DNA of 39,066 bases from Oligoflexales bacterium (GTDB lineage: Bacteria; Bdellovibrionota_B; Oligoflexia; Oligoflexales; RGVZ01). Positions 4,110 to 39,066 of the stretch are shown in pieces. The DNA lies in assembly GCA_947476525.1 (NCBI GenBank), contig CANJQY010000007.1, positions 1-39,066 on the forward strand, given 5' to 3'. Every line of letters begins with the position of its first letter. Within the stretch, counting starts at the first letter, position 1. Position numbers and translations under genes: made by a program. The notes below the pieces were generated by a model. The model was not told where the DNA came from, did not search any database, and was given only the letters and a program-made list of their open reading frames with translations.

Positions 4110-4128
4110 CTGTCAGGTAAATTGACAG
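4110..4128. promoter_or_regulatory. putative sigma-54 upstream activator site, CTGTCA-N7-TGACAG
   Basis: Perfect 6-bp arm inverted repeat CTGTCA GGTAAAT TGACAG, about 103 bp upstream of the -24 element at 4222; same arms and spacing recur at 14746-14764. Confidence 0.5.
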
Positions 4129-4219
4129 TTTGTACGGAAGTCCAACCATAATCCAGCGCATCGTCTGTTTAACAGCCCTATATTACAGGCATTTTAAATG
4201 CATTTGCATCCACCCCGCC

Positions 4220-4237
4220 TTGGCACGGCTCGTGCAT
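4220..4237 (+). promoter_or_regulatory. putative sigma-54 (-24/-12) promoter
   Basis: TTGGCACGGCTCGTGCAT: GG and GC separated by exactly 10 nt, TGGCACG perfect -24 box. Confidence 0.65.
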
Positions 4238-4249
4238 ATTGGAACTCAT

Positions 4250-4266
4250 CTAATCTTTCAGATTAG
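4250..4266 (+). other. hairpin at predicted 5' end of the sigma-54 transcript
   Basis: CTAATCT TTC AGATTAG perfect inverted repeat starting a few nt after the predicted start site (about 4247). Confidence 0.45.
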
Positions 4267-4304
4267 TGAAGTAGTTCGGCGGTTTTCACTTTGAATCAAT
4301 AAAA

Positions 4305-4484
4305 ATGACATCCTTTGAAACAGTCAAATTTAGATTCATCTCTTTTCCCCTTTGTTGCCCTTCTGTTGCCGCTCACCCCGCTCCCGTCACTAATCAGCCG
4401 GGCTACTTTCCTCCTCCCTCTCGTCGTCGGTCCATTGTTGGTCCCGACTATTGCCTGCCTAGAGCTTCGGCGAAACACTTCTAA
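4305..4484 (+). CDS. possible small ORF (59 aa) or non-coding transcript downstream of the sigma-54 promoter
   Basis: ATG ACA TCC TTT ... TTC TAA, MTSFETVKFRFISFPLCCPSVAAHPAPVTNQPGYFPPPSRRRSIVGPDYCLPRASAKHF; falls under the 60-aa ORF cut-off; no clear Shine-Dalgarno. Confidence 0.25.
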   Translation: MTSFETVKFRFISFPLCCPSVAAHPAPVTNQPGYFPPPSRRRSIVGPDYCLPRASAKHF

Positions 4485-9183: not shown

Positions 9184-9819
9184 TTACCGTGGATTTAAAC
9201 AGTCCGTCCGCTCTTTGTCACATCCAGTAGTATCTGCAGCACATCTTTTTTCCTCCTCTTTCGCTTTCTTTTCGGCGGCATCGCGCTTTTCAAATATTAT
9301 CTTAAGCTGCTCTGCGTTTTTATCCTCGCACTTTTTAATTCCTGGTTCCTCACATTTAGCACGAATCGCCGGTAATGTTTTTACACAAGTTTTATTCAAT
9401 TCGCTTAAGCAGTCAACTTTAAGCTTGGCGGGTTTGGCGGGTTTTCTGTCGCAAGCAGGTCGACCATCTTCAATACATTTTTCTCGCGCAGTATATACCG
9501 TTGAGTGACAAGCTGCTTTTGCTACTTGAATACATGTTCGCTTTTCTTCTCCTGCCACATTGACTTCTGCAGTCGACATCATTGTCTCGACCCCTGTATT
9601 TGAAATTCGGCAGAGACGTGGACGTGCTTCTATGCATCCAGTATAATGTTCTTGGCACATAGCTTGCCTTATCTCGGGGCGCATCGTCGTGGTCGAGGGG
9701 GGGGGCGGCGTTGTTGGTTGGCTTGGATTTGTTGACGGATTGAATGGCATTGGGGGTTGAGCATATAAGTAGGGTGTGGCCGCACCTAGGCTAATAAACA
9801 ACAGTAAAGATCGGTTCAT
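9184..9819 (-). CDS. secreted cysteine-rich hypothetical protein
   Basis: 211 aa; signal peptide MNRSLLLFISLGAATPYLYA; Pro/Thr-rich linker; 14 Cys in the rest. Confidence 0.7.
   Translation of the reverse strand: MNRSLLLFISLGAATPYLYAQPPMPFNPSTNPSQPTTPPPPSTTTMRPEIRQAMCQEHYTGCIEARPRLCRISNTGVETMMSTAEVNVAGEEKRTCIQVAKAACHSTVYTAREKCIEDGRPACDRKPAKPAKLKVDCLSELNKTCVKTLPAIRAKCEEPGIKKCEDKNAEQLKIIFEKRDAAEKKAKEEEKRCAADTTGCDKERTDCLNPR
9697..9705 (-). repeat. C9 homopolymer in coding region
   Basis: + strand CGAGGGGGGGGGCGG; encodes the TTPPPPST linker on the minus strand. Confidence 0.9.
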
Positions 9820-14744: not shown

Positions 14745-14765
14745 ACTGTCAATACTTTTGACAGT
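14745..14765. promoter_or_regulatory. putative sigma-54 upstream activator site ACTGTCAA-N5-TTGACAGT
   Basis: Perfect 8-bp arms; core CTGTCA-N7-TGACAG identical in arms and spacing to 4110-4128; about 74 bp upstream of the -24 element. Confidence 0.6.
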
Positions 14766-14826: not shown

Positions 14827-14844
14827 TTGGCACACAATTTGCTT
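14827..14844 (+). promoter_or_regulatory. putative sigma-54 (-24/-12) promoter
   Basis: TTGGCACACAATTTGCTT: GG-N10-GC; near-perfect consensus TGGCACRN4TTGCW; upstream of the CDS at 14924. Confidence 0.8.
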
Positions 14845-14923: not shown

Positions 14924-15613
14924 GTGATGTCGAACATGATAAAAACAATGATTAAAATAACCCAACTTTTGGTGACCTTCGGAGCACTATCAATTGGACT
15001 TCATTCGCCCACGGCGTTTGGTCAACCAGGGGCATCCCACAACCTGGTTAACTCATACCGGTCGAGTGCGATCACCCATATTTTCATCTCACAATCAGTT
15101 GAGGGTGAGTTTGGCAATTATGAATTGAGCTCGAATCGAGGTTCAATGGGCCTAACATCAGGTACAGGTAACTCGAAACAGACTAGCAAATGGAAGGGCT
15201 ATAACATTTCGCAGACGTTTGGACTTGAATTACTTAAATTTGTTCAATTTGATGCATCGCACAGTATGATGAATATGCGCTCCGTCAATTCAAGTCTAGA
15301 ACATCTTGGCGGCAGTCGATTTACAGTTGGATCGCGCCTTGTTTTTCTTGCGCCCGTTGCGAATCTTGAAGTCGGAGGCGGGGTTATTGGCAGTCGCTAT
15401 GACTACCAGTACAATCTTAGTACCACTGATTTTTACGGTAGTGGTGTCTATTACACCTTGGGCATCAATTACTTCTTGAGCGAACGTGTCTCATTATTTG
15501 GGCAATTAAAATCAATCGACGAGCACTCAGTCCGGTCTGGCGGCAATAGCGAAACGTCCAGCATAACAGCAAAGACTTCGAATATAGGAACAGGCTTCTC
15601 GCTTTGGCTTTAA
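14924..15613 (+). CDS. hypothetical secreted protein, possible small outer-membrane beta-barrel
   Basis: 229 aa; signal peptide ending AFG-QPGA; Ser/Gly/aromatic alternating pattern; ends ...GTGFSLWL. Confidence 0.65.
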   Translation: MMSNMIKTMIKITQLLVTFGALSIGLHSPTAFGQPGASHNLVNSYRSSAITHIFISQSVEGEFGNYELSSNRGSMGLTSGTGNSKQTSKWKGYNISQTFGLELLKFVQFDASHSMMNMRSVNSSLEHLGGSRFTVGSRLVFLAPVANLEVGGGVIGSRYDYQYNLSTTDFYGSGVYYTLGINYFLSERVSLFGQLKSIDEHSVRSGGNSETSSITAKTSNIGTGFSLWL

Positions 15614-37779: not shown

Positions 37780-37989
37780 CAGATGTTTTCCGCGTTGGTT
37801 TTTGAAGCGCCCGGGTTTTGGGTTTCTAGCACGGGGTTCGTATCGTCATTTTTCTGAAGATCTAGACTGCCAAAATTTGACATTTTGTAAAAAAAATGAA
37901 CAGTTCGTCGATTAATCAGCAGCCTGAGTGATTCTATAACTACCTGTATTATATAGATATACTCGTGATTTTGACCTTTCTTCCCGCAG

Positions 37990-38007
37990 TGGCACGATCC
38001 TTGCTTA
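37990..38007 (+). promoter_or_regulatory. putative sigma-54 (-24/-12) promoter
   Basis: TGGCACGATCCTTGCTTA: perfect TGGCACG-N4-TTGCTT, about 63 bp upstream of the ATG at 38054. Confidence 0.85.
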
Positions 38008-38053: not shown

Positions 38054-39066
38054 ATGAAAACCAGAATTGTTGCGACTTTGCTTTCAGGACTCATTACCAG
38101 CAGCTGTGTAGTGAAAGTTCAAGTAAAAAAAGAAAATAAGGCCAGTCAATTAAAGAGCACGCCAGCAGATTCTTCGGTGAGTATCGCTGGTCAGGAAGAT
38201 TTTTTAAAGCACTTAGACGGCTTGCGCACTACAGCTGCCGACCTCCTAATCAAAGAATTGGCGCAGCGTGACTATGTAGGTACATTTCGCTCTTCGATTA
38301 GAAAATACCGAGATTTCATCATCGCTAAATCTGGTAAACGAATTATCCTTGCCGACAGCTTCTACAGTGACAGCGCAAACTACTGCCGCAAAACAGGTGT
38401 AGACCTCAACGGTGACAACAGCAGTGAAACCTTAGGGATTTTATTAAAGACTGTTGTCCTTGCAAAACTTAGTGAGACGGACCTTGGAAAAATCAACTCA
38501 TCCTTAGCTAAAGAAGCCCAGTCCGTTGCCCAATTGATCACTAAAGAACTCGGCCTTGAAATCGTTGGCACTAGCACTATGACTGACGAAAACGGACTAC
38601 GCGTCACCAAAGGCAGCGTAACCATCCACCTGACCCCAATCGCTGGCGAAGCGATTGACGAGGCCATGAAGCACCGTGACTCCGTTGAAATTCTATCTCT
38701 CGACTTCGAGCGTACCCTTGGCGCCAATTCAGTTGGTTCCTTTGCATCGACGGTCGCACTTCCCTACGAAAAAGGCACTGACACCTTAGACGCGACTGGA
38801 TCGATTACGGTAAGCCGAGTTAAAGACGGTCTCGACCATGTTCATGAATTACAGATACTATTTGGAACGACTGGTGCAGATCCATCTTACAGCCGTGCAT
38901 TAATTGTTCGTGAAGATCACAGTCAATCTTCTAAGTTCGAAGTCACCGAAATTTTCAACGTCGGATCGAGCAAAGAATCCAGCCACAAGTCTTTCATCGA
39001 TCTAAAGGCGGGAACCCAGTGCAAGGGCTCTGGCACGCCACCAGCTGGAGATCCAGTTGTTTACAC
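38054..39066 (+). CDS. lipoprotein, truncated by window end (not in the ORF track because it has no stop)
   Basis: AAGGAGAATTTAAT-ATG; MKTRIVATLLSGLITSSCVVKVQVKKENKASQ... lipobox ITSSC; frame open to the last base. Confidence 0.85.
   Translation, partial: MKTRIVATLLSGLITSSCVVKVQVKKENKASQLKSTPADSSVSIAGQEDFLKHLDGLRTTAADLLIKELAQRDYVGTFRSSIRKYRDFIIAKSGKRIILADSFYSDSANYCRKTGVDLNGDNSSETLGILLKTVVLAKLSETDLGKINSSLAKEAQSVAQLITKELGLEIVGTSTMTDENGLRVTKGSVTIHLTPIAGEAIDEAMKHRDSVEILSLDFERTLGANSVGSFASTVALPYEKGTDTLDATGSITVSRVKDGLDHVHELQILFGTTGADPSYSRALIVREDHSQSSKFEVTEIFNVGSSKESSHKSFIDLKAGTQCKGSGTPPAGDPVVY

Follow-up and report, generated by a model that had tools for sequence, protein, structure and literature searches.

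The window (the whole stretch of DNA analysed, 39,066 nt) carries an upstream palindrome (UAS), CTGTCAGGTAAATTGACAG, at 4110–4128 (+), in the neighbourhood of genes for Mrp and for a convergent MshEN protein (ending at 4459). The palindrome has the arrangement CTGTCA-N7-TGACAG with the core TGTC-N9-GACA, and lies 92 bp upstream of the -24 element of a sigma-54 -24/-12 promoter, TTGGCACGGCTCGTGC, at 4220–4235 (+), which has an exact GG-N10-GC. Both elements were present where the original prediction had placed them, as was its hairpin CTAATCT-TTC-AGATTAG, located at 4250–4266. The claim that no + strand gene precedes the convergent MshEN gene was also borne out, as neither an ORF of note nor a sigma-70 promoter was found on the + strand between 4053 and 4459. 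The interval first proposed for the element, 4110–4266, was too narrow, as the element runs on to about 4410. Nor had the original prediction recognised TGTC-N9-GACA as the core of the palindrome, or the envelope character of its regulon.

Within the whole 2.74-Mb assembly (176 contigs), CTGTCA-N7-TGACAG occurs at exactly two sites, both inside the window and both closely 5′ of -24/-12 elements (at 4221 and 14828), with a chance expectation of ca. 0.16 sites for 12 fixed bases; the reversed pattern has no site in the same genome. The second site, retrieved by genome pattern search at 14746–14764 (+), is 64 bp before an exact TGGCAC-N5-TTGC, and accounts for the recurrence of the same arms and spacing about 10 kb away that the original prediction had noted. 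Taken by itself, the -24/-12 consensus does not significantly exceed chance in the window (at two mismatches or fewer, 45 matches versus 41 expected), and thus the promoter case rests on the combination of UAS and -24/-12 element. The comparative evidence below supports a palindromic UAS and a sigma-54 promoter that putatively drive a non-coding transcript. A further exact TGGCAC-N5-TTGC at 9653–9667 (+) is situated within an opposite-strand ORF (9184–9819) without the UAS composite, and is probably a chance occurrence.

The promoter at 4220–4235 appears to give rise to a structured non-coding RNA about 170 bases in length. The predicted small RNA (sRNA; 4247–4418, +, about 165–172 nt) was delimited as conserved DNA without a conserved ORF and by covariance-model matches; its start was set at 4247, 12 nt after the GC of the -12 element, and its 3′ end, which is uncertain, was placed shortly after helix P2. 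The 5′ hairpin P1 (4250–4266) is followed by the 5′ arm (4268–4285) of the long-range closing helix P2, of which the 3′ arm (4392–4409) completes 18 bp. P2 encloses an inner hairpin, P3 (4292–4338), with arms TGAATC (4292–4297) and GATTCA (4333–4338), and a pyrimidine-rich stretch with repeated UGUUGC (4339–4391), unpaired in the consensus and a candidate interaction region. The hairpin of the original prediction, P1, is thus no more than the opening helix of a larger conserved structure. No terminator of standard form was found after P2 in the window copy; terminator-like hairpins were seen by eye straight after P2 in four of the homologous loci (L046, L049–L051).

Folded singly, the window copy was energetically no better than shuffled sequences (z −0.62), and the structure claim therefore rests on covariation. 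In the covariance-model alignment of 19 distinct sequences, compensatory changes were found in 29 of 31 pairs (P1 7/7, P2 16/18), and 93.8% of the cells were paired, versus 65.2% after shuffling and 25–43% with the helices slid; the 29/31 and 93.8% figures lean towards structure, because this alignment was fitted to the model. A four-sequence MAFFT alignment, which was not model-fitted, gave P1, P2 and P3 on a smaller scale, with both-side changes in six pairs. In P1, two pairs are altered on both sides already inside genus g1. P3 shows no variation among the four g1 sequences, and is formed instead by GUUUGU/ACAAAC in other families, while unpaired sequence of the CUGUUGCU type is retained across families. 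MAFFT realignment of the non-g1 RNAs shifted the helices, and the iterated covariance model R3 was used instead.

A protein scan with the MshEN neighbour placed the close relatives among Oligoflexales MAGs (Bdellovibrionota, Oligoflexia). A DNA search of 38 relatives recovered 4221–4410 at 71–73% conservation in G001 and G003. The conserved block opens at the initial T of TGGCAC and stops shortly beyond the 3′ arm of P2, and the flanking genes differ. A short-pattern search added a homologue in G005. The first covariance model (R1), built on four sequences of the RNA without its promoter, gave full-length matches in G004, G007 and four genomes of family f8. Its iterated versions R2 and R3 returned an identical set of 19 loci in 18 of the 58 genomes of the phylum (families f1, f5, f6 and f8), many of which had served to train the later models; outside R2 training were G008, G013, G014, G025, G029, G032 and both G035 loci, and G009 entered only via the identical copy L042. 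Judging from isolate labels, the 18 sRNA-bearing bacteria are presumably of freshwater origin. No match to R2 or R3 was obtained in the sister group f13. The sRNA had no Rfam match at gathering thresholds, and when these were relaxed to E = 5 it gave one chance-level match to another family; the phage collection gave no match. Candidate L035 (G038, E 0.04), in which no promoter or helix was seen, was lost with the better models and was rejected.

At all 19 loci, TGGCA-N7-TGC lies 6–31 nt 5′ of the model start, though the promoter was excluded from the models. Within the 170 bp before each locus, TGTC-N9-GACA is exact in nine of the 19, a number that rises to 12 if one mismatch is allowed; none of the spacings N7, N8, N10, N11 and N12 gave an exact site at these promoters. 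A good UAS is absent at seven of the 19 promoters, including all three of genus g2. UAS and -24/-12 element are retained in close relatives when the homologous loci are compared, as one of the proposed checks had asked. In two f8 genomes (L032, L033), whose promoters are also counted among the seven, CTGAC-N9-GTCAG stands upstream of the RNA in place of CTGTC-N9-GACAG, possibly a variant activator site.

An upstream Mrp gene, a convergent downstream gene for the acidic MshEN protein, or both, are found again in f1, f5, f6 and f8, which supports orthology of the loci. G035 carries two tandem sRNA copies downstream of mrp, each with its own sigma-54 promoter (L044/L051, G035:C13:22401-22962). 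The sole g1 genome without an sRNA match is G002. Its MshEN contig, which at 77,485 bases is as long as the contig of L036, ends in the MshEN gene, so that the sRNA site was probably lost to a gap in the assembly. Five genomes of genus g19 (f6; G041, G036, G033, G030 and G042) contain UAS and sigma-54 composites and no detectable sRNA.

The composite of TGTC-N9-GACA followed 50–110 bp on by TGGCA-N7-TGC was matched 67 times in 43 Oligoflexales genomes, compared to eight matches with N10 and one for the reversed pattern. The palindrome is thus enriched before other -24/-12 sites, as another of the proposed checks had asked. In the 40 regions read, most genes downstream of the composites start with apparent signal peptides or lipoprotein signals. 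Besides outer-membrane beta-barrel proteins and lipoproteins, they encode M14-like and OmpA-like proteins, and some are glycosyltransferase loci; all were assigned by reading the sequences, except for the beta-barrels, which were tested by phmmer.

In the window, the second UAS (14746–14764) and its -24/-12 promoter (14827–14842, +, with the exact TGGCAC-N5-TTGC at 14828–14842) precede a gene (14927–15613, +) for a secreted, probably outer-membrane beta-barrel protein without a Pfam family. Homologues of this protein stand behind a UAS and sigma-54 composite in G002, G003, G004, G010 and G035. A third sigma-54 promoter (37989–38004, +, element at 37990) precedes a lipoprotein gene (38054–39066, +; orthologues L085, L089 and L095) that is cut by the window end. 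Its UAS has decayed to the half site TTTGACA in the window copy, and the counterparts in G001, G003 and G005 carry the full TGTC-N9-GACA, so that the lipoprotein gene probably belongs to the regulon. The shared elements suggest that the sRNA is apparently switched on together with outer-membrane protein and lipoprotein genes.

Eight strong Sigma54_activat matches were found in the source genome. One of them, a PocR-AAA+-HTH_8 (Fis) enhancer-binding protein (EBP), is encoded on contig C90 next to the gene for LolA, the outer-membrane lipoprotein carrier (G000:C90, L006:889-2448 and 29-634), with TGTC-N9-GACA 122 bp upstream of its gene start. The other seven full EBPs had no such site in their fetched flanks. 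Orthologues of the PocR-EBP occur throughout the class; an exact site precedes the gene in nine of ten f1 genomes, when the chance of an exact match is about 0.4% per 260-bp stretch, and a one-mismatch site at −199/−200 precedes it in all six g9 genomes (f8). The recurrence of TGTC-N9-GACA upstream of its own gene points to autoregulation and makes the PocR-EBP the best candidate, and we favour it, with some reserve, as the putative activator of the sRNA. It is a less probable, though realistic, alternative that a different EBP binds the palindrome and merely has the PocR-EBP gene under its control, as the PocR-EBP occurs also in groups that yielded no composite (f11) or no sRNA (f13). Against this stand the fetched flanks of the other seven EBPs, which lack TGTC-N9-GACA, and the persistence of this palindrome before the PocR-EBP gene in g1, where its position varies.

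Taken together, 4110–4418 is likely an autonomous sRNA gene, presumably driven by the PocR-EBP and sigma-54, which would form the post-transcriptional arm of an envelope regulon. In the established sigma-54 mechanism, an EBP loops onto the sigma-54 polymerase. As applied here, the PocR-type EBP, with its sensor engaged, would bind TGTC-N9-GACA (centre at about −128) and loop to sigma-54 RNA polymerase at the -24/-12 element, and transcription would begin near 4247. The RNA would then fold into the 5′ hairpin and the 18-bp closing helix around the inner hairpin and the single-stranded pyrimidine-rich UGUUGC stretch. The same EBP would control its own gene and the lipoprotein and outer-membrane genes, including the one at 14927 and probably that at 38054, while the exposed pyrimidine-rich stretch may pair with purine-rich ribosome-binding regions of mRNAs. 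The promoter, the UAS, the structure, its conservation and the regulon are established at the level of sequence; transcription of the sRNA is very probable, and action by base-pairing is a plausible but tentative proposal.

Other readings of the transcript were weighed against this sRNA gene. The original prediction had left open whether the promoter makes a small mRNA or an sRNA. Of these, the sRNA stood and the small mRNA did not, because conservation extends from the promoter to about 4410, compensatory changes are strong, and the reading frame is not conserved. Short ORFs of 11–54 codons can be found in every copy, but they are not conserved between families, a 62–65-codon frame of G001 and G003 is broken by TAG in the window, and the compensatory changes and indels ignore codons, which makes a small protein encoded at the locus extremely improbable. 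That the transcript is instead a leader of the next gene (5′ UTR, attenuator or riboswitch) is suggested by the co-directional C39-like peptidase gene about 100 bp downstream in g9 (f8) and by ParA, co-directional in G001 and G003. The next gene, however, is convergent in the window, G004, G005, genus g2, G013 and G025, downstream genes vary between genera, and several members have the terminator-like hairpins after P2; we thus regard a leader as highly unlikely. Least remote from the sRNA gene is a reading in which the same RNA acts on protein, titrating or scaffolding an RNA-binding protein in the manner of a GlmY-like decoy or an RsmZ-like sponge. It would agree with a structure held by compensatory change as the sequence diverges, with a closing helix whose 18 bp would be uncommon in an sRNA working by antisense pairing only, and with the outcome of a duplex screen, in which the pyrimidine-rich stretch gave no signal against a limited set made up of the genes of the window, two from the regulon and that of the EBP. 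The conservation in sequence of the CUGUUGCU-type unpaired stretch across families speaks against it, and action on protein is considered possible but rather unlikely.

The predicted sRNA represents a novel family within an established class, the sigma-54-dependent sRNAs, and its likeness to GlrR-GlmY is confined to the logic. In keeping with that class, the 19 loci combine a -24/-12 element at the RNA 5′ end and a conserved RNA structure that lacks coding capacity, and up to 12 of them also have a candidate activator-binding inverted repeat of the kind expected 80–200 bp upstream. As far as can be read from the genomes, the family would be known along with the promoter and activator site that serve it, its likely activator and the protein regulon. 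It presents a parallel, apparently independent case in which a small RNA is tied to a sigma-54 regulon of the envelope. Sigma-54 has been proposed to control centrally the bacterial exterior (PMC3162934), and the Oligoflexales case agrees with this proposal. TGTC-N9-GACA combined with the -24/-12 element also provides a clean DNA word for mapping the envelope regulon. A more far-reaching reading, which we hold to be doubtful as a whole, would have the RNA family order-wide and vertically inherited, the non-coding effector of an undescribed sigma-54 envelope regulon under the PocR-EBP encoded beside LolA. Oligoflexales would then have invented the GlrR-GlmY logic independently, and the RNA would work by way of a protein partner and not as a simple antisense RNA.

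In the open-licence literature, no report of a matching RNA and none of an Oligoflexales sRNA was found, and attack-phase sRNAs of Bdellovibrio are described as having no significant homology outside B. bacteriovorus (PMC3627812). The closest known parallel in logic is the enterobacterial GlmY/GlmZ-GlrR (QseF) system, with which the locus has in common a sigma-54 promoter, an upstream TGTC...GACA palindrome, a free structured sRNA and an envelope-linked regulon. In one report, glmY and rpoE are linked to GlrR, sigma-54, palindromic TGTC...GACA sites and the envelope (PMC6075780). GlrR sites are given as TGTC-N10-GACA (PMC8745638), and three such sites were located upstream of E. coli glmY, whereas the Oligoflexales sites are strongly N9 (67 versus eight composites, and no exact N10 at the 19 promoters). 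GlrR has a response-regulator receiver and is encoded in the same cluster, whereas the candidate here has a PocR sensor and is encoded on another contig beside LolA; the sRNA has no Rfam sequence or structure match to GlmY/GlmZ. Because site spacing, activator architecture and RNA all differ, the Oligoflexales sRNA is not a member of the GlmY/GlmZ-GlrR system.

The Qrr sRNAs of Vibrio, activated by the EBP LuxO, are sigma-54-dependent and alike in EBP/sigma-54 logic; the Oligoflexales RNA has no Rfam match. Pxr of Myxococcus xanthus, an sRNA of about 108 nt with a reported sigma-54 promoter (PMC5568312), is comparable in that respect, but consists of two or three adjacent stem-loops beside nla19. 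The Oligoflexales RNA has its core inside one long-range helix and lies next to Mrp and MshEN, and identity with Pxr was excluded on this architecture and neighbourhood. The 6S RNA shares the similar length and the long closing helix. Identity with 6S was rejected, as the window had no RF00013 match and the genome holds a separate 6S locus at G000:C26:24267-24446 (L152; RF00013, E 6.6e-16), and across the order 36 of 41 genomes carry a 6S RNA.
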